A stretch of 9,275 nucleotides of DNA from Desulfobacterales bacterium (GTDB lineage: Bacteria > Desulfobacterota > Desulfobacteria > Desulfobacterales > JAFDCJ01), in the NCBI GenBank assembly GCA_020345785.1, contig CP070771.1, positions 858,357 through 867,631 of the forward strand, written 5' to 3'. Positions within the stretch are counted from its first letter, which is position 1. Each line of letters starts with the position of its first letter. Shown here in pieces: positions 1-8,974 of the stretch. The notes below the pieces were generated by a model that was not told the DNA's origin, did no database searches, and saw only the letters and a list, made by a program, of their open reading frames with translations. The position numbers and the translations under genes are program-made.

Positions 1-705
1 GAAAATCAAACCGAATGCCAGTGCAGCGTCGCGCACGGCGATTAAAATTTCCCGTCCTTTGGCTTTGTCCTCGGATCGTTCCAGTGCCGGACCCATTTCC
101 GGTTGGAAATAGCACCTGACGCCGATGTAGATCATAAACATCCCGGACATGATCAGACCGGGAATAATACCGCCCGCAAACATCTTTCCGATGGAGGTAT
201 TGGTCACCGAAGCAAAAACGATCATGGGAATGGAGGGCGGGATGAGAATTCCCATGCCGCCGCCGGCCATAACCGAGCCCAGCGCCAGGTGCCTGTTATA
301 GCCGCGCGAGAGCATCGGCGGAATCGCCACCGTCCCGGCAGTCATGATTCCGGCGCCGATGATACCCACCATGGCCCCCATAATCGAACAGACAATGATC
401 ACACCGATGGCCAGCCCGCCGCGGATGCGGCCCATGAGCACATGGATGGCGTGGAACATCGCCTCTCCCAAACCGGAGTTCAGCAGGATCTGCCCCATGA
501 AGATAAACAGGGGTAAGGCCAGCAGAATGAAGCTGGAAATACCGCTCATGGCTGTCGGCGGAATGATATTAAATGATTGCGGTCCCCAAGTGAGCAGGCC
601 AAACAACATCGCCACGCCGCCCAAAGCAAAGCCGACCGGCGCCCCCATGGCAAAGATCAGAAGCACCGCTAAAAATAAGAGAATTGTTAACAGCCCGATA
701 CTCAT
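1..705 (-). CDS. dctM: TRAP transporter large permease DctM, partial (3' end outside window)
   Basis: Reading the minus strand from the ATG at 705-703 gives 235 open codons to the window edge, so this is the N-terminal half of a protein whose family is usually about 425-435 residues. It is the ion-coupled (normally Na+) membrane subunit that moves substrate delivered by DctP across the inner membrane. Visible family marks are the hydrophobic start MSIGLLTILLF, GAPVGFALGG (residues 21-30), a GAG-containing loop near 117-119, GILIPPSIPMI (152-162) and AGGIIPG (177-183), all typical of the DctM/TRAP large-permease family. A charged loop around 201-219 separates membrane segments. Its ATG overlaps the dctQ stop as ATGA, indicating translational coupling; a weak AGGGA lies about 10 bases before the start. 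The substrate cannot be inferred from this subunit. Confidence 0.95.
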   Translation of the reverse strand, partial: MSIGLLTILLFLAVLLIFAMGAPVGFALGGVAMLFGLLTWGPQSFNIIPPTAMSGISSFILLALPLFIFMGQILLNSGLGEAMFHAIHVLMGRIRGGLAIGVIIVCSIMGAMVGIIGAGIMTAGTVAIPPMLSRGYNRHLALGSVMAGGGMGILIPPSIPMIVFASVTNTSIGKMFAGGIIPGLIMSGMFMIYIGVRCYFQPEMGPALERSEDKAKGREILIAVRDAALAFGLIF

Positions 706-1217
706 GCGTCCAGTTCCCTGTTCGTGACCGCAAGGTAGAGACTCCGAATCCAATTGGCCAGACCTTGAAGAAATAAGAGACCTGCCCCGACGGGAATCAT
801 GAGTTTGAAATGGCCGATGGGCGGCCCCCATAAAGTGGCGGTTGCCTCTCCGCCTCTTATGGCATCAATGGCATTCTCCCATCCATAAATGATCACCAGA
901 GCAATGAAAAAGAAGAACAGCAAACCCGTGATGACGTCCAGCACCGCCCTGCCGCGGGGCGACAACCGCGTATAAATCAGATCGACATTGATGTGCTCCT
1001 TGTTTCTGAGCGCATACGCCCCGCCCAGCAGACCGGTGTAGCCGAACATAAAGATGGCGGTATCGTAGGCCCATATGGTCGGGTGGTTGAAAACATACCG
1101 GGCCACGACCTCAATGGCCAGAACCACCACCATGGCCGGCATCAGAACGCTCACCAAAAGGCCACAGACCTCGCTCAAACGATCCACGGCACGTAGCACG
1201 ACTTTAAAGAATTGCAT
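702..1217 (-). CDS. dctQ: TRAP transporter small permease DctQ
   Basis: This 171-residue protein is the four-helix membrane subunit that pairs with DctM in the inner membrane. Hydrophobic segments lie at about residues 18-39, 52-70, 92-112 (with a FFFFIALVII stretch) and 136-157, the normal DctQ arrangement and length. The family-like EVVARYVFN after helix 1 and the EHINVDL loop after helix 2 (about 74-80) are present. The gene sits between dctP and dctM and ends in an ATGA overlap with dctM. The 23 bases before its ATG contain no convincing Shine-Dalgarno sequence, only GATAGATAG, and a strong hairpin lies just upstream. Translation may therefore be weak, consistent with TRAP systems needing far less membrane protein than binding protein; that last point is inference. 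Confidence 0.93.
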   Translation of the reverse strand: MQFFKVVLRAVDRLSEVCGLLVSVLMPAMVVVLAIEVVARYVFNHPTIWAYDTAIFMFGYTGLLGGAYALRNKEHINVDLIYTRLSPRGRAVLDVITGLLFFFFIALVIIYGWENAIDAIRGGEATATLWGPPIGHFKLMIPVGAGLLFLQGLANWIRSLYLAVTNRELDA

Positions 1218-1289: not shown

Positions 1290-2318
1290 TCAGCGGCCGA
1301 GTTTTTTCATGAAAGCATCCTGCGCGTCCAAAAGTTCCTTGGAATATTTATCCTTGGCAGCATACTCCGGCCAAATCTTTTTGCCGGCTTCCTGCCACTT
1401 GGCCGCATCTTCAGGCGAGGGAGCAGGACTCCACGTCAAACCGCCGTCGATCATCTCCTGCAGAGCGGCCTTTTCCCACATCAAAGACTTGATTCGCATG
1501 TCAACGCCGGCCCAATTGCCGGCCGTCAGAAGGATTTTCTGCAAATCTTCAGGCAGCTTCTTCCATGCGTTCATATTGACGATAAACGGCGCCACCTGGC
1601 TGCCGGTGAGCGGTAAGGGATACAGATACTTGGCCTGCTCGTGCCATTTACCGTCTCTGAAGTCGATCAGGTTGGAGCCGCAAGTTGCATCGATAACCCC
1701 GGTCGCCAAACTGGTGTACGTCTCGGCAAACGCCATCGTTACCGGAGACATACCGAACTGTTGCATGACTTTGCCGTAAGCCCCCACACCTCTGATTTTC
1801 AATCCCTTTAAATCATCCAACGCGTTGATCGGCTTTTTGGTCAGCATGTAGGTGGCAGGTTGGTAGAATGGACTCAGCCAAAAGACACCATAGGCGGCAT
1901 AGGCATCCCTGAGGACCCTATCCCAGCCCGACTCCTGGAAAAGCGCTACCAGTTCAAGAAACTGGTCAGGCCCCCCGGGAAGGCCGAGTTCTACAATGCC
2001 GGCAGGCAATTCACCGGCATGCAGGGCCTGGTAAGGGGAACCCATCTCCACCAAACCCGATCTTGTGGCGGAGAGAACCTCGGTGGCCGGCACCCCTTCA
2101 CCGTCATAGACCATGGTGATGGTTAATTGGCCCTCTGACATCGCCTTGACATTGTCGCAAAAGGCTTCATAAACTTCACCAAAGGCGGTTCCTCGCGGAT
2201 ACAGGGTTGCCATTCTCCACTTGAACGATTTCTCAGCGGACATAACCGGCATCGCAATGACCGTCATCATGATAACCAGGAAAATCATGACCGATGACCT
2301 TAGCAAAATTCTCTTCAT
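1290..2318 (-). CDS. dctP: TRAP transporter periplasmic solute-binding protein DctP
   Basis: This 342-residue protein captures a (usually carboxylate) substrate in the periplasm and passes it to DctQM. An N-terminal signal peptide is clear: MKRILLRSS, a hydrophobic core to about residue 25, and a likely cleavage near MSA/EK (28/29). The mature protein shows the DctP pattern: MATLYPRGTAFGEVYEAF near residues 36-53, LKGLKIRG (170-177) with the arginine (R176) that normally pairs with the substrate carboxylate, then the AETYTSLATGVIDA region (198-211). Length fits the family. An excellent ribosome site (GGAGG, 8 bases before ATG) supports the start and high expression. The gene is first in the dctPQM operon and is divergent from the GntR-type regulator. 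R176 favours an organic acid, but the exact ligand is not readable. Confidence 0.95.
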   Translation of the reverse strand: MKRILLRSSVMIFLVIMMTVIAMPVMSAEKSFKWRMATLYPRGTAFGEVYEAFCDNVKAMSEGQLTITMVYDGEGVPATEVLSATRSGLVEMGSPYQALHAGELPAGIVELGLPGGPDQFLELVALFQESGWDRVLRDAYAAYGVFWLSPFYQPATYMLTKKPINALDDLKGLKIRGVGAYGKVMQQFGMSPVTMAFAETYTSLATGVIDATCGSNLIDFRDGKWHEQAKYLYPLPLTGSQVAPFIVNMNAWKKLPEDLQKILLTAGNWAGVDMRIKSLMWEKAALQEMIDGGLTWSPAPSPEDAAKWQEAGKKIWPEYAAKDKYSKELLDAQDAFMKKLGR

Positions 2319-2584: not shown

Positions 2585-2613
2585 TTGACATTGAATCGCA
2601 ACTAAATTATAAA
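2585..2613 (+). promoter_or_regulatory. Sigma70-type promoter for the GntR-fusion regulator
   Basis: TTGACA (2585-2590), a 17-base spacer and TATAAA (2608-2613) match the sigma70 consensus at 11 of 12 positions with ideal spacing. Transcription would start near 2620, leaving a leader of about 35 bases before the ATG at 2655. The rest of the 2319-2654 spacer is AT-rich apart from a GC-rich patch at about 2459-2481 containing GCCG...CGGC, and no gene is seen in it. Confidence 0.65.
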
Positions 2614-2632
2614 TATACATTCTTTTAGCGGT

Positions 2633-2654: not shown

Positions 2655-3854
2655 ATGCAAATAAAATATGGCCTACAAATGACAACTAATGATGCCACAG
2701 ATAATCGAGGAACGAGGCCAATTGCTGATGTGAAAACCGTTGCCAAATTGAGACAGATTCTGCGTGGTAAACCTCGTGATCTTCTCCTGTTTGATCTGGC
2801 GATCCAAACCGGCGTGGGCATCAATCATTTAATTAGACTGAAGGTTAAAGACTTGCTGGATTTGGCGGTGGGTGCGCCATTGCCTTTTGCGGATTCCCCA
2901 AAGGAGGCTGCAGCGGAACACGTGCTGAATCAGCAGTGCTATGATACTTTCCGCTGGTATTTAAAAATGGTCCATCCGGCCCCGGATGACTATCTGTTCC
3001 CCTCCCGTAAAGGGGGTGGACCGCTTAATCTAACCAGCGCCTCTCATATGATTAAAAAATGGTTTAACGATGCCCACATTGAAGGCTTGTCCGGTGCCAG
3101 ATCATTGAAAAAAACTTGGCAGGTATTTTACCGCACCGGCAGCCAGGTCAACACCGATATTGCCGAGAAAATGGATCCAACCCGAATCCTCAAACCCGTC
3201 GAAACAAAGACGGTTCAGGAAGTCGTTTACCAGGAATTGTTTCAGGCAATTATTTCCGGCCGAATACCTCCGGGTGAGAAGCTGGTCACAGATAAAATCG
3301 CCAATCGCATGAATGTCAGCCCCATGCCGGTCCGTGACGCCTTATACCGACTTCAGGCGGCTGGCTTTATTTCAACCCGCCGAAAAATAGGAAGCATCGT
3401 CAATGAGCTCTCACCGGAAAATCTGGAAGAGATTACCGAAATCCGGCTTGCGCTTGAACCCATGGCAGCCAGCAAAGCTGCCGTGAACCCCGGCAGAAAA
3501 ACGCTGAAACGTCTGGAAGATTTGCATGCGGCATTCCTCACTGCCAGGGCCGACCACAATATCGAGGCTTTTCTCTCAATTAATCGGGAATTTCACCATA
3601 CGATATACCGGGAAGCCGATATGCCCATCCTTTTACCCATCATCGATGGGTTATGGGGCAGGATCAGTCCTTATCTGCATATTCTGATGAAGGAACAAGA
3701 CTATTCAGGTTCGGAATGGGCGATAAAAACCCATGAAGGCATGTTAAACGGGATGAGATCAGGTAAACCGGACAAGGTCGTCAAATATGTTAAAGCCGAT
3801 CTTACCAAAGCCGCCCAGGCGTTGATGAATATGTTTGCCCGGATGAGAAATTGA
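2655..3854 (+). CDS. GntR/FCD transcriptional regulator with N-terminal degenerate tyrosine-recombinase-like domain
   Basis: This 399-residue protein has two parts. Residues about 183-251 are a GntR winged helix (VVYQELFQAIISGRIPPGEKL, then VSPMPVRDALYRLQAAGF). Residues about 253-395 are an FCD ligand domain of VanR-like type, with NREFHHTIY (H314) and THEGMLNGMRSG (H360) as likely metal or ligand positions. Ordinary family members are about 220-240 residues. Here residues about 25-176 precede the wHTH and resemble a phage-integrase/XerCD catalytic domain: DLLLFDLAIQTGVGINHLIRLKVKDL (42-67), DDYLFPSRKGGGPL (111-124) and GARSLKKTWQVFYRTG (147-162). Box I arginine is G55, the box II H-x-x-R is R149-x-x-K152, the next His is F158, and no nucleophilic tyrosine follows, so recombinase activity is not expected. 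The ATG at 2679 is an alternative start. It is divergent from dctPQM and probably regulates it (inference). Confidence 0.85.
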   Translation: MQIKYGLQMTTNDATDNRGTRPIADVKTVAKLRQILRGKPRDLLLFDLAIQTGVGINHLIRLKVKDLLDLAVGAPLPFADSPKEAAAEHVLNQQCYDTFRWYLKMVHPAPDDYLFPSRKGGGPLNLTSASHMIKKWFNDAHIEGLSGARSLKKTWQVFYRTGSQVNTDIAEKMDPTRILKPVETKTVQEVVYQELFQAIISGRIPPGEKLVTDKIANRMNVSPMPVRDALYRLQAAGFISTRRKIGSIVNELSPENLEEITEIRLALEPMAASKAAVNPGRKTLKRLEDLHAAFLTARADHNIEAFLSINREFHHTIYREADMPILLPIIDGLWGRISPYLHILMKEQDYSGSEWAIKTHEGMLNGMRSGKPDKVVKYVKADLTKAAQALMNMFARMRN

Positions 3855-4243: not shown

Positions 4244-5569
4244 TCAGCCAGAGGCCGCCAGGCGCCTGATGACACGATCAGCGCAGCCTAAGGCCTTATC
4301 TACATCTTCTTCGGTTACAGCGGCTGAAATAAACCATCTACCGCCTCTTACCAGTAAAACACCTTCCTCGGCCATTTGTTTTTCAAACCGGCTTTGTATC
4401 TTCCAATCTATCTCATGCAGGTCATGAGGCGTATAGGCAACATCTTTGTCGACAACCAAAAAAACAAACACGCCGGTCGGTCCTTGAACCAGCGCAGGCA
4501 GTCCATGTTTGCGAGCAATCTGTTTTAAACCATCCATTAATCTCTTTTGAACGGCAATTATTTTTTTATAGACCGCACCATTGTCTCTTTCAAGGATGGT
4601 GAGAGTGGCCAATGCAGCTGCCAACCCGACTGGATATCCATTGAAAGTGCCGGCGCCAAGCACCCGCCTTTCGTAGAGCATATCCATGATGGTTCGTTTG
4701 CCTGCCACCGCCCCCAAGGGAATTCCGCCGGCCAACGATTTGCCGAAGGTACTGAGGTCGGGCGTTATTCCAAACAACCCCTGAGCGCTGTTGAGTCCCA
4801 CCCGGAAGCCGGTTTGCACTTCGTCGAAACACAGGACGACGTCGTGCTGTCGGCAGAGATCCCGCACTTTTTCAAGATAACCCGGTCGCGGCGGACAACA
4901 TCCATAATTTAGAAGAATGGGTTCCATCAGGACCATCGCCACTTCATCGCCATAGGATTCCAAAACCCGGGCCAATGCATCCGCATCGTTCCACGGCAGT
5001 TTGAAAGACTCCTCGACGGTGCCGGAGTAGACGCCTTCAGAACCCATAGGGTCTGTATGCGGGCGCAAGGCAAATGGTCTGCCCGCGGGGCTCGGGTCAA
5101 CGGCACCGCCCAGCACGTTATCCAGCCAGCCGTGGTAGTGTCCGTCGAAGCGGATAAACCGCGGGCGGTTGGTGTAAGCCCGCGCCAACCTGATGGCAAG
5201 CTGCACAGCCTCGGTCCCTGCCAGGCAGAAGCGAACCTGCTCGGCGCAGGGAACACACCGGACAAACTTTTCGGCCAGTTCCACCTCGATCGTGGTTCTA
5301 AAATCTCCGGTTGAAAGATAAATCAGCTGATCCAGTTGATCCTTCAAAGCCCGACTGTATTCCTGGTTGCCGTGCCCCAGCATGCCGGGACCATAACCGC
5401 AAACAAAATCGATATACTCATTACCGTCAACATCCCAAAGTTTTGCACCCTGTCCACGTTCGATAAATAAGGGTTTTACCCGTGCCGGTGCCCTGAGATT
5501 GCTGTGAGGCCCCGGCATGTATTGTTGTGCTCGATCGAACAACTTTAGGCTTTTTTCCAGTGAAAACAT
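4244..5569 (-). CDS. Class-III PLP-dependent aminotransferase, glutamate-1-semialdehyde aminomutase-like
   Basis: This 441-residue cytosolic PLP enzyme belongs to aminotransferase class III and resembles glutamate-1-semialdehyde 2,1-aminomutase. Numbered from the start chosen here: LAGTEAVQLAIRLARA (about 116-131) and GHYHGW (143-148) bind the cofactor; FDEVQTGFRVG (248-258) carries the PLP-nitrogen aspartate D249; TFGKSLAGGIPLGA (274-287) carries the Schiff-base lysine K277; GTFNGYPVGLAA (307-318) follows. The frame is open up to 5653, but GAGGAGG sits 9 bases before the ATG at 5569, and the longer form would overlap the upstream ligase gene, so 5569 is preferred. The ligase stop is 34 bases upstream, indicating one operon. 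Since the neighbours are CoA ligases rather than haem genes, a catabolic amino-group transfer or mutase role is more likely than haem synthesis (inference). Confidence 0.88.
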   Translation of the reverse strand: MFSLEKSLKLFDRAQQYMPGPHSNLRAPARVKPLFIERGQGAKLWDVDGNEYIDFVCGYGPGMLGHGNQEYSRALKDQLDQLIYLSTGDFRTTIEVELAEKFVRCVPCAEQVRFCLAGTEAVQLAIRLARAYTNRPRFIRFDGHYHGWLDNVLGGAVDPSPAGRPFALRPHTDPMGSEGVYSGTVEESFKLPWNDADALARVLESYGDEVAMVLMEPILLNYGCCPPRPGYLEKVRDLCRQHDVVLCFDEVQTGFRVGLNSAQGLFGITPDLSTFGKSLAGGIPLGAVAGKRTIMDMLYERRVLGAGTFNGYPVGLAAALATLTILERDNGAVYKKIIAVQKRLMDGLKQIARKHGLPALVQGPTGVFVFLVVDKDVAYTPHDLHEIDWKIQSRFEKQMAEEGVLLVRGGRWFISAAVTEEDVDKALGCADRVIRRLAASG

Positions 5570-5578
5570 AATTTGACG

Positions 5579-5585
5579 CCTCCTC
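5579..5585 (-). promoter_or_regulatory. Ribosome binding site deciding the aminotransferase start
   Basis: The transcribed strand reads GAGGAGG followed by CGTCAAATT and ATG (5569). This near-perfect site in the 34-base gap after the ligase stop favours the MFSLEKSLKLF start over the in-frame start 28 codons further upstream. Confidence 0.85.
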
Positions 5586-5603
5586 AATTTACCAAGATGA
5601 AAA

Positions 5604-7166
5604 TCATGTTTTGAGCTTAAACCCCGCCTTATCCCGGTCCCAGGTTGCTTCACTGACTGTTTTCAAATCTCTCTTGAGAATCTTGGATGTTTCGGTTCTG
5701 GGAAACTCATCGATGAATTCCACGTATCTTGGAATCATAAAATAGGCCATCTTATCTTGGCAGAATTCCAGCACTTCCGCCGGCGCAAGCGACATACCGG
5801 GCTTTAGTCGCAGCACCACCTTTAAATCTTCATCGCCTAGGTCCGAAGGGATCCCGACAGCGGCACATTCCAGAACTTTGGGATGCGTGTTGATAATTGA
5901 TTCCACCTCGTGGGAGGAAATGTTTTCTCCCCGTCTTCTAATACAGTCTTTCTTGCGGTCGACAAAATAAAGATAACCGTCTGCATCCAAATAGCCGAAA
6001 TCGCCGGTGTGAAACCAAAGGTTTCGCCAGGCGTCAACCGTTTCGTGGGGTGCATTGTAGTATTTTTGCATCATGATGTGCGACCTCTTTGGCCGCAAAA
6101 CGATTTCACCTACTTCGTCAGCCGCCAACTCGCGGTCATTTTCGTCGAAAATCTTTACCTCAACATCTTTCACTGGTCGTCCGCAGGTACCGGGACGACT
6201 GTGCCTGTCCTTGGGAGAGCAGCAACTAATCGGCTCGATCTCGGTCATACCATATTCGTCTGTAATGGTAACGTTGAATCTTTTTTCAAAAGCCCGGTGA
6301 ATGGACTTGGGGGGGTGTCCGACCACAATGCGCCGCAAGCAATTGTCGGCGTCTTTTGGTTGGGGCGCCTGTTTATAAAGCAGTTCAATCATAACTGCGA
6401 AACCACCGGTCAGGGTAGCATTATATTTGCTGATGTCGCTCCAAAATGTGCTGAGACTGAATCGCTTGACCAGGGCCATGGCACTGCCGCTTACCAGACA
6501 ACTCATCAGGATAACGCCGGCACCCACTATATGAAACAGCGGAAACCAGCAGTAAAAAATGTCACCGGGCCGCATATCAAGACTGTCCGCAACGTTTTGT
6601 CCGCACCACACATATTGGTTGTTGGGCTGGAGCACTCCCTTGGACATCCCGGTAGTGCCGGAGGTATACATGATTGCCATGGGGTCGTAGGGGTTGATTT
6701 TGCAGTCGGGAGCGGATGGTGAACCGCTAAGCAAATTGCGATATGGAATTTTCTCCAGCATCAGATCGGCGGGTTGCTCATCATCGCAGCAAACAATCAG
6801 GGTATGGAGCTTTTTTTGCTGAAAATGACTGTTTTTGACGTATTCAACATACCCTTTTTCCGCCACCATCACCTTAGCGTCGGCGGTATCAATCATGTGC
6901 GCCAGAACAGGCCCCCGGTGGCTTGTATTGATCGGGACGGCAATGGCACCTATTTTAGATAAACCAAACCATGTGTAAAGCCACTCCAGGCAATTCTCCA
7001 TAAAGATGATGACGCGATCGCCTTTAATTACCCCCATCTCTAAAAACGAATTGGCTATCCGATTGGCCAACGAGTTCATCTGTTCGAAGCTGACGGTTTG
7101 ATCTTCGTAGATGACAAAAGGCGTGGAAGCAAATACTCGAGCGGCCCGTTCCAGATACATTGCCAC
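5604..7166 (-). CDS. CaiC-like AMP-forming acyl-CoA synthetase/ligase
   Basis: This is a 520-residue member of the ANL adenylating superfamily, which activates a carboxylic acid with ATP to an acyl-adenylate and then a CoA thioester. Motifs in order: P-loop YTSGTTGMSKG (167-177), PLFHIVGAG (209-217), DEYGMTE (303-309), WFHTGD (384-389), hinge DRKKDCIRRRGENIS (403-417) and the C-terminal catalytic lysine in TETSKILKRD (491-500; K495). FHTGD and IRRRGENISSHEVE resemble crotonobetaine/carnitine-CoA ligase (CaiC-like) proteins, but the substrate is not fixed by this. The TSK replaces the more usual TGK. The start is uncertain: 7166 is GTG, an ATG follows two codons later (7160), and neither has a close Shine-Dalgarno; a GAAAGGAG lies about 42 bases upstream. 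It precedes the aminotransferase in one operon. Confidence 0.9.
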   Translation of the reverse strand: MAMYLERAARVFASTPFVIYEDQTVSFEQMNSLANRIANSFLEMGVIKGDRVIIFMENCLEWLYTWFGLSKIGAIAVPINTSHRGPVLAHMIDTADAKVMVAEKGYVEYVKNSHFQQKKLHTLIVCCDDEQPADLMLEKIPYRNLLSGSPSAPDCKINPYDPMAIMYTSGTTGMSKGVLQPNNQYVWCGQNVADSLDMRPGDIFYCWFPLFHIVGAGVILMSCLVSGSAMALVKRFSLSTFWSDISKYNATLTGGFAVMIELLYKQAPQPKDADNCLRRIVVGHPPKSIHRAFEKRFNVTITDEYGMTEIEPISCCSPKDRHSRPGTCGRPVKDVEVKIFDENDRELAADEVGEIVLRPKRSHIMMQKYYNAPHETVDAWRNLWFHTGDFGYLDADGYLYFVDRKKDCIRRRGENISSHEVESIINTHPKVLECAAVGIPSDLGDEDLKVVLRLKPGMSLAPAEVLEFCQDKMAYFMIPRYVEFIDEFPRTETSKILKRDLKTVSEATWDRDKAGFKLKT

Positions 7167-7208
7167 TGTATTTTGATCATTATTGTTTTGATTATTGATA
7201 ACGCGTCA

Positions 7209-7216
7209 CTCCTTTC
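7209..7216 (-). promoter_or_regulatory. Displaced Shine-Dalgarno-like sequence upstream of the CaiC-like ligase
   Basis: GAAAGGAG on the minus strand is the only good ribosome-site match before the ligase, yet it is about 42 bases from the GTG start. Reading back in frame, a TGA at about 7204-7206 closes the frame, and no ATG lies between it and the GTG. An out-of-frame ATG at 7180 follows it at 28 bases. It may be fortuitous, or mark a small leader or a start-region indel. Confidence 0.3.
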
Positions 7217-7248
7217 AGTTACACCAGCAGGGCTGGGGATAGGAGGAA

Positions 7249-7265
7249 GGCCCCTGGAAGGGGCC
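7249..7265 (-). other. Hairpin between the two CoA ligase genes
   Basis: GGCCCC (7249-7254) and GGGGCC (7260-7265) form a perfect 6-base stem with a 5-base loop in the 167-base gap. On the transcribed strand it is followed by TTCCTCCTATCCC, too poor in T for a clear Rho-independent terminator. It could attenuate transcription from the upstream ligase into the ligase-aminotransferase pair. The T8 run at 7290-7297 lies on the upstream side of the stem for this strand. Confidence 0.4.
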
Positions 7266-7333
7266 GGTATCAAGTATGAGCCATAAGCTTTTTTTTATAA
7301 GATTGAAAACCTGGTTCTCTGGGCCAAGAGTTT

Positions 7334-8974
7334 TTAATCAGCCTTGGCCTTACGCTGAATCTCCAGCTTCTTCAACTCCCGGCGCATTATTTTGCCGGTG
7401 GCGGTCATGGGCAGTTCCTTGACGAATTCGACTTCCCGGGGATATTCGTGGGCGGCCAGCCGCTTCTTGACAAAGGTCTTGATATCTTCGGCAACCTCCG
7501 GTCCCGGTGTCACACCCGCTTTGGGCACGACAAAGGCTTTGACAATCTCGGTGCGCACCGCATCCGGACTGCCGATCACCGCCACCATCGCCACGGCCGA
7601 ATGTTTCATCAGGCAGTCTTCGATTTCAGCCGGTCCGATACGGTAACCAGCACTGGTGATGACATCATCCTTGCGGCCGTGGAACCAGAAATAGCCGTCG
7701 CCGTCCTTTTTGGCCAGATCCCCGGTCAACAGCCAATCCCCGATAAATTTTTTGCGCGTGGCCTCCGGGTTGTCCCAGTATTCCAAAAACATCACCGGAT
7801 CGGGTCGCTTAACGGCGATTTCACCGACCGTTCCTTGCGGCGCCGGATTGCCCTTTTCATCGACAACATCGACGATATGGCCCGGGACCGCGCGGCCCAT
7901 GGACCCGGGCCGGATTTCCATAATTTCGGCACAGCAGCCCACGATGAGATTGCACTCGGTTTGACCATAGAATTCGTTGATGGTCAGTCCCATCACTTCC
8001 CTGCCCCAATCGAGCAGCTCCTCGCCCAGGGTTTCTCCGCCGCTGCCGATACTGCGCATGGCGTAGCTGTGGCGACGTTGCGGATCCTGGACCTGACGCA
8101 TCAGCTTCAAGGCCGTCGGCGGCATAAAGGCATTGCGAATCCCGTATCGGGCGATAAGATGAAAGGCCTTTTCGGGGTCGAATTTTCTGGCCCGATGGGC
8201 CAGCACGGGAATGCCGTGATGCCAGCTGGGGAAAAGGACATCGATGAGTCCGCCGATCCAGGCCCAGTCTGCCGGCGTCCAGAAAAAATCGTCTTCGCGG
8301 GGGAAAAAATTATGAGGAAATTCAACCCCCGGTAAATGCCCCAGAAGCGTGCGATGGGCGTGCAGGGCACCTTTGGGAGGGCCGGTGGTACCGGAGGTGT
8401 AAATGATAAGGGCCGGATCATCGGCCCTTGTTTTGACCGGCGTAAAATCAGGTGATCCCTTCGCGAGCATCTCTCTGAAATCCAGCACCTTCGAAGGTCT
8501 TTCGCCGCCGGTCACCGCAACGATCTGAAGGTGAGGCAAATTGGGCCAGATTTCCAATACTTTTGGCAAATTGGCCTCATCCGTCACAATGGCTTTGGCC
8601 TGACTGTTTTCCAGGCGATACGCCAGGGCATCGGTGCCGAAAAGGGTAAACAGCGGAATGGCGATGGCGCCGATTTTATAGGCGGCAATGTGACTGAGGG
8701 CGGTTTGAGGACATTGCGGCAGCAGAATCCCGAACCGATCACCCGCATCAAGACCGCAGGCTTTAAGACCATTGGCCAGTCGGTTGGAAAGTCGTTTGAG
8801 ATCCCAGAACGTGTATTTTTCGACCTGGCCGTTTTCATCCTCGTAAATCAACGCCAGGCGGTAGCGCTGCCGGGCCCATTTATCACATATATCCACGCCG
8901 ATATTGTAGTCGTCGGGAACTTCCCAGCGAAATGAATCATACACCTCACGATAGTTTCGGCCGGATTTTAACAT
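7334..8974 (-). CDS. AMP-forming acyl-CoA synthetase, acetyl/medium-chain (AcsA/ACSM-like)
   Basis: This 546-residue cytosolic enzyme makes acyl-CoA from a carboxylate, ATP and CoA. It belongs to the acetyl-CoA synthetase-like side of the ANL superfamily, distinct from the neighbouring CaiC-like ligase. Motifs: P-loop YTSGTTGPPKG (192-202), FWTPADWAWIGGL (231-243), NEFYGQTE (333-340), WLLTGD (414-419), hinge RKDDVITSAGYRIGPAEIE (434-452) and catalytic K528 in TATGKIMRREL (524-534). All core residues are intact and the length is full. GGAGG lies 7 bases before the ATG at 8974 and supports this start. The tail is Lys-rich (LKKLEIQRKAKAD). FWTPADWAWIGGL and SAGYRIGPAEIE are typical of short/medium-chain or branched acyl-CoA synthetases; the substrate is unknown. 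It may head the minus-strand set continuing into the ligase and aminotransferase genes. Confidence 0.93.
   Translation of the reverse strand: MLKSGRNYREVYDSFRWEVPDDYNIGVDICDKWARQRYRLALIYEDENGQVEKYTFWDLKRLSNRLANGLKACGLDAGDRFGILLPQCPQTALSHIAAYKIGAIAIPLFTLFGTDALAYRLENSQAKAIVTDEANLPKVLEIWPNLPHLQIVAVTGGERPSKVLDFREMLAKGSPDFTPVKTRADDPALIIYTSGTTGPPKGALHAHRTLLGHLPGVEFPHNFFPREDDFFWTPADWAWIGGLIDVLFPSWHHGIPVLAHRARKFDPEKAFHLIARYGIRNAFMPPTALKLMRQVQDPQRRHSYAMRSIGSGGETLGEELLDWGREVMGLTINEFYGQTECNLIVGCCAEIMEIRPGSMGRAVPGHIVDVVDEKGNPAPQGTVGEIAVKRPDPVMFLEYWDNPEATRKKFIGDWLLTGDLAKKDGDGYFWFHGRKDDVITSAGYRIGPAEIEDCLMKHSAVAMVAVIGSPDAVRTEIVKAFVVPKAGVTPGPEVAEDIKTFVKKRLAAHEYPREVEFVKELPMTATGKIMRRELKKLEIQRKAKAD

Follow-up and report, generated by a model that had tools for sequence, protein, structure and literature searches.

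A GntR-FCD regulator from a Desulfobacterales bacterium preceded by a tyrosine-recombinase-fold domain predicted to be catalytically inactive

The window, that is, the whole 9,275-nucleotide stretch of DNA analyzed here (GenBank assembly GCA_020345785.1, contig CP070771.1, positions 858,357 to 867,631), comes from a Desulfobacterales bacterium and includes a gene whose product, judging by profile matches and a predicted structure, is a McbR/VanR-type GntR-FCD regulator preceded by a domain with the fold of the tyrosine recombinases (N-domain). Alignments and the model indicate that the recombinase part has lost the active site and the last two helices, and has kept the fold and a basic character. 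The features of the locus, together with those of other loci discussed below, are collected in Table 1. Met9 is the likely start of the protein because all 12 other close homologues with a printed start begin there, with the residues MTT; the public database entry for this protein begins at residue 26. PADLOC returned no match for this protein.

Table 1. Coordinates of the features discussed; those without a locus prefix refer to the window.
Feature	Position	Strand	Remarks
Fused regulator frame, longest ATG version	2655..3854	+	open, 399 residues
Likely coding sequence, fused regulator	2679..3854	+	391 aa from Met9
Tyrosine-recombinase-fold catalytic-type domain, residues 19-169	2709..3161	+	fold, profiles, homology to stand-alone recombinases
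Gly55 codon at box-I catalytic Arg position	2817..2819	+	alignment
Ser117-Arg118-Lys119 loop	3003..3011	+	conserved in 98, 95 and 97%, respectively, of the 119 fused proteins compared
Arg149...Lys152 at catalytic H-x-x-R positions	3099..3110	+	alignment
Linker, residues 170-184, replaces His and Tyr helices	3162..3206	+	predicted local distance difference test score (pLDDT) < 50 at 163-173
GntR winged-helix DNA-binding domain, residues 185-250	3207..3404	+	
FCD ligand-sensing and dimerization domain, residues 255-392	3417..3830	+	Pfam, fold
Promoter-like TTGACA-17-TATAAA before regulator gene	2585..2613	+	consensus match by eye
Weak candidate winged-helix site TTTTATACAA	2503..2512		
Weak candidate winged-helix site AAATATACAT, overlaps -10 box	2611..2620		compared with Atu1419 operator (PMC7797058, in excerpt)
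DctP, tripartite ATP-independent periplasmic (TRAP) transporter solute-binding gene, divergent	1290..2318	-	profile match
TRAP transporter DctQ	702..1217	-	profile match
TRAP transporter DctM, cut by window end	1..831	-	
Class-III aminotransferase, glutamate-1-semialdehyde-aminomutase-like, convergent	4244..5653	-	
MTTB genes	L026:12843-14276, L028:4650-6062, L030:12009-13460, L033:3322-6200		
PAS-fused recombinase-domain frame	L064:3-1808	-	cut at contig end
PAS-fused recombinase-domain frame	L065:1879-3774	+	
PAS-fused recombinase-domain frame	L066:1258-2802	+	
PAS-fused recombinase-domain frame	L067:1596-3515	+	
PAS-fused recombinase-domain frame	L068:1422-3377	-	

An earlier note on this DNA had described a normal GntR winged helix-turn-helix (wHTH) and a VanR-like FCD domain, and both were borne out by Pfam matches well over the cut-offs (GntR, residues 189-249, 52.9 bits versus 27; FCD, residues 259-381); the FCD fold was also recovered in the fold comparison. 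The same note's claim that a recombinase fold precedes them in one frame agrees with the predicted structure, in which the N-domain adopts the tyrosine-recombinase catalytic fold with confidence after about 20 leading residues. The counterpart of the helices that carry the second His and the Tyr is absent in the model, a poorly ordered linker being found instead. In the profile check that the note had proposed for this part, searched with residues 1-183, the Pfam Phage_integrase match (residues 39-143) fell slightly under the cut-off (24.8 bits versus 27.1), and the integrase family PHROG 216 matched residues 12-155 (2.3e-11). With the same query, the best NCBIfam recombinase row was far below its cut-off (23.6 bits versus 220), and a single-sequence search of the PDB gave no match up to E 1.

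Homology of the N-domain to a group of short stand-alone tyrosine recombinases is clear (6.6e-42 for P0130), PHROG 216 matches both, and the stretches PRDLLLF, LFKSRKG and LRKTW are common to them. These recombinases, 283 of which, alike in length, are picked up by the same profile, have about 185-210 amino acids and no core-binding domain, and come from Desulfobacterota and Bacillus records. The complete set R-K-H-R-H-Y is present in 101 of the best 120 of them and the Tyr in 106, whereas in the fused domain the set is lost and the domain is cut short. At the positions of R-K-H-R-(H/W)-Y the window protein shows G55, P82, R149, K152 and K172 and no Tyr; K172 sits in the linker and is not reliably aligned with the second His/Trp. 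The substitutions of the box-I Arg by G55 and of H-x-x-R by R149 and K152, and the missing C-terminal Tyr, all of them read by eye in the earlier note, are thus confirmed by alignment. The loss extends to the family, for which we compared 119 fused proteins (P0001 and 118 others, with a length of at least 330 aa, the window's own shorter record P0002 and P0108 being left out). None keeps the full catalytic set or the Tyr, and the His of H-x-x-R survives in one; by alignment, Arg-I is found in 31 and Arg-II in 59. The counts for the Lys (32/119) and the second His (4/119) are rough because the beta2-beta3 loop aligns poorly and the latter column, not reliably aligned, lies in the linker.

Three consecutive stand-alone short recombinase genes were observed in an uncultured bacterium (L007:7634-8197, 8880-9545 and 9989-10516, + strand), two with an intact R-K-H-R-H-Y and one with N-L-A-R-Q-F. 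A gene of the same degenerate type is found in a member of the Gastranaerophilales (L006:9959-10513), and it is possible that such genes are dead partners or regulators of active recombinases. A further stand-alone gene, in the G004 genome (L025:5766-6344), is apparently broken by an insertion and adjoins a transposase frame that looks IS3-like by eye.

The earlier note had asked for other proteins with the same two-part architecture, and at least 118 were found besides the window's own. Among the best 120 of 219 homologues the two parts are joined in 119 with the window's own record included, that is, in 118 of the 119 others, the remaining one (P0108) being a shorter gene call of 269 aa without most of the N-domain. 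Homologue records name Desulfobacterales, Desulfatiglandaceae and Thermodesulfobacteriota. Among the records with the fusion are P0040 and P0099, whose longest contigs measure 2.6 and 6.5 Mb, and the fusion recurs in genome records from several lineages, with five loci in four named ones. Genome samples searched at E 1e-60 gave fused forms in 8 of the 291 genomes from the order to which G004 (titled Desulfobacterales) belongs; the form in G162 is partial and apparently frame-broken. At 1e-85, 1 of 395 genomes in a phylum sample had one, G004 itself, and in the class to which G002 (titled SAR324 cluster) belongs, 1 of 52 genomes has the fusion, in three copies. Counting every form of the N-domain (1e-12), 61 of the 291 genomes carry it, and at least one genome, G051, has one fused protein and two further frames of about 205 residues with the domain. 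At L033:8318-9327 (+) a copy of the fused regulator is divided over two frames and could be a pseudogene or a sequence error.

In a tree of the N-domain (50 of the 119 fused proteins and 30 of the 106 Tyr-keeping stand-alone ones), the fused rows and four degenerate N-only records lie on one side of a branch supported at 100/99; on the other are the 30 stand-alone rows, all intact, plus two rows taken from L006 and L007. Because of the four N-only records, the label "fused" takes five changes on this tree. In a tree of the C-terminal part (C-part), sampled from 40 of the 119 fused and 37 unfused proteins, all 40 fused rows fall in one clade (100/99) that also includes the unfused L013 and L024, beside which a remnant of the N-domain was looked for and none was found. 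Neither root was inferred, and with bootstraps not settled many forks stay open; the simplest reading of both trees is one ancestral fusion with some later losses. An unfused close relative of the C-part (L026:14623-15294, +) is separated by about 6.6 kb from a fused regulator of the same genome (L026:6894-8030, -), and no N-domain remnant was found next to it.

The N-domain is under constraint, to a degree comparable with FCD. When fused proteins were compared in 7021 pairs, the mean identity was 43% for the N-domain, 54% for the wHTH and 42% for FCD, and the identities of the N- and C-parts correlate (0.86). The ratio of nonsynonymous to synonymous substitution rates (dN/dS), taken from L028/L029 (83%), the single close pair for which DNA was available, was 0.23, 0.05 and 0.21, respectively, and 1.13 for the linker (residues 159-184). 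Arg41 is present in 119/119 fused proteins and Trp136 in 99%, and the core positions L43-F46 and W136 are retained. The mean net charge of the N-domain is +9 (also +9 in the window protein) versus +13 for the same columns of 106 stand-alone proteins, those of the 120 listed that keep the Tyr; the 14 left out include truncated or degenerate fused-type records.

Upstream of the regulator gene, the promoter-like element was not among the finds of a promoter scan, which did not exceed those in shuffled sequences. The divergent DctP gene is, from its position, the likely target. The convergent cluster on the other side (4244-8974, -) includes the aminotransferase and two acyl-CoA ligases, one carnitine-CoA-ligase-like (PRK06155-like) and the other acetyl-CoA-synthetase-like. 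Among 29 picked neighbors from 12 other loci there were class-IV aminotransferases at two loci and a class-III at one, amino-acid or peptide ATP-binding cassette (ABC) binding proteins at three in addition to other ABC parts, a proline dehydrogenase with aspartate-dehydrogenase and TctA genes, and genes of the diaminopimelate-epimerase, ornithine cyclodeaminase, aconitase X and URO-D types. MTTB methyltransferases (trimethylamine/betaine family) occur at at least 4 of the 12 loci. On the whole, these neighbors suit local regulators of transport and of amine and amino-acid catabolism, with the MTTB genes hinting at one-carbon or betaine substrates; more speculatively, one-carbon compounds would, given this association, be plausible candidate ligands.

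The C-part resembles the VanR-type GntR/FCD regulators Atu1419, PmiR and Escherichia coli McbR (YncC); the 212-residue McbR chain matches from its residue 9 onward, and unlike it the window protein has about 170 residues of recombinase fold ahead of the winged helix. McbR binds dihydrofolate (PMC13343897, in excerpt). Dead recombinases in regulation are already known, and FCD regulators are a standard family. MrpR, the master repressor of prophage SPbeta, has a recombinase fold, has lost recombination and represses via DNA binding (PMC10516654, in excerpt); a chain from the SroF-Sar complex of phage phi3T likewise ranks among the closest known systems. MrpR shares with the window protein the loss of the catalytic residues, but in this phage repressor the recombinase fold is itself the regulator, and its chain, which matches from residue 103, has about 100 residues before the domain and no other regulator domain after it, in place of about 20 residues before and wHTH-FCD after; GntR is not mentioned in the text of the paper. 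TnsF of Tn6022-like transposons uses an inactivated tyrosine recombinase domain for target-site selection (PMC10293859, in excerpt), with zinc fingers at its N-terminus and not in response to a metabolite; no zinc-finger row was found in a Pfam scan of the window protein up to E 1. Crypton-derived DUF3504/Gcr1-type genes place a dead tyrosine recombinase domain in transcription regulators that often hold another DNA-binding domain (PMC3212892, in excerpt). These are eukaryotic, with other partner domains and a presumably independent origin, and the Pfam scan, whose filters drop weak matches, gave no DUF3504 row up to E 1.

The basic charge, the S-R-K loop, the FCD-like constraint and the loss of catalysis favor what the earlier note had suggested, recruitment of the domain as a DNA-binding or oligomerization module; the charge and the loop, with the analogy to MrpR, suggest that the N-domain binds DNA. 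We consider it moderately probable that it holds DNA beside the winged-helix operator. A metabolite-responsive GntR-FCD regulator would have taken up, most simply in a single ancestral fusion event, a catalytic-type domain from a short tyrosine recombinase. FCD would dimerize the protein and sense a small molecule, and the winged helices would recognize an operator within the 2319-2678 spacer. The two recombinase-fold domains, flexibly linked, would clamp DNA that flanks this site or lies farther away, and would not cut it. Clamping would strengthen the repression complex that sits on the divergent TRAP-transporter promoter, or bend it, and we infer that this operon is repressed until a ligand on FCD releases the regulator from DNA.

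Several observations weigh against this interpretation. The box-I Arg and the second Arg touch phosphates in active recombinases, and both are often lost in the fused proteins, so the DNA affinity of the N-domain may be weak. The unfused L013 and L024 show that a regulator of this clade may do without the domain, and the placement of the domains relative to each other in the predicted structure is unsure (predicted template modeling score, pTM, 0.58). A shared operator motif was not firmly found across 11 spacers: palindromes were above expectation in six and below in five, with no common motif, and similarity to three overlapping VanR-type patterns (the first from PMC7797058, in excerpt, the others our own variants) was mildly above random, 7, 14 and 8 of 200 Markov-sampled controls being as good, counts that are uncorrected for the use of three patterns. 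Some neighbors, such as a multiheme cytochrome (L003) and a sulfatase (L032), are off the catabolic theme, and others fit it less plainly: an oxidoreductase at L032, a thiamine-diphosphate enzyme together with a D-Ala-ligase-type gene at L029 and a zinc alcohol dehydrogenase at L030. One nearest neighbor at L028 has no Pfam match.

The main rival, which we regard as unlikely, is that the dead domain is a protein-protein module that loops DNA from one winged-helix site to another and makes no contact with DNA itself. Recombinase domains assemble into cyclic tetramers, and the N-domain would therefore join two FCD dimers into a tetramer. In favor of this, core positions such as L43-F46 and W136 are kept while catalytic residues are lost, and the VanR-type relative Atu1419, a tetramer, forms a DNA loop between palindromes spaced by 190 bp (PMC7797058, in excerpt). 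The two weak candidate sites in the spacer of the window are about 108 bp apart. On the other hand, the C-terminal helix that recombinases pass to the neighboring subunit is within the missing part, and the domain is still strongly basic with a conserved S-R-K loop. It is very improbable that the N-domain is a decaying remnant of the fusion with no present role: catalytic residues vary freely, two members of the C-part clade are without the domain and degenerate N-only records stand beside fused relatives, but the fold is confident and the identity, the dN/dS value and the conservation of Arg41 and Trp136 given above all speak against it. Even less credible is that the domain still nicks or joins DNA, whether through a newly arisen active site or helped by an active stand-alone recombinase of the same cell; the domain is common in the order and G051 has further copies, but the Tyr is absent from every fused protein, the H-x-x-R His from 118 of 119, and only eight of the 291 genomes carry a fused form. 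A local artifact of sequencing or assembly that merged two genes, as the odd architecture and the apparently frame-broken L033 might suggest, has practically no likelihood and is refuted by the homologues, since the parts are joined in nearly all of those listed, P0040, P0099 and the five loci of the four named genome records included.

The short recombinase domain was also found before one or two PAS domains in five frames of three genomes (G038, G194 and G238) of the same order as G004, four of them with a GerE/LuxR helix-turn-helix match (L064 has none). None of the five has the complete catalytic set (the Lys of L065 is an alignment gap), and Arg-II, His-II and Tyr are present in all. Since these proteins retain the C-terminal helices that the GntR-FCD clade is without, the PAS-LuxR fusion looks like a separate recruitment. 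An apparent further fusion, L092 (377 residues), and L069 (346) were not counted, being stop-to-stop frames with an unassigned first part. A bolder proposal, rather doubtful at present, is that a recombinase synapse has been reused for gene control: the dead domains of FCD dimers would pair two DNA segments and never cut them, a metabolite would open or close the loop, and the domain would have been recruited at least twice (GntR-FCD and PAS-LuxR). If true, bacterial transcription factors would have in this domain an add-on module of general use.

The earlier note knew of no described family with this architecture, and our searches of the open-access literature likewise found no description of the GntR-FCD fusion, which is weak evidence because MrpR was also missed by the same searches; nor was a description of the PAS-LuxR fusion found there. 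Known domesticated recombinases include a repressor from a phage, target selectors of transposons and regulators in eukaryotes. This family shows the same route within regulators that look like ordinary metabolic ones of bacteria. Its more than 100 natural variants, together with the intact stand-alone relatives and the second type of regulator, offer a natural series for asking what the recombinase fold does without catalysis. For annotation, the family is a warning that an "integrase" label on a gene of this kind does not have to imply recombination.
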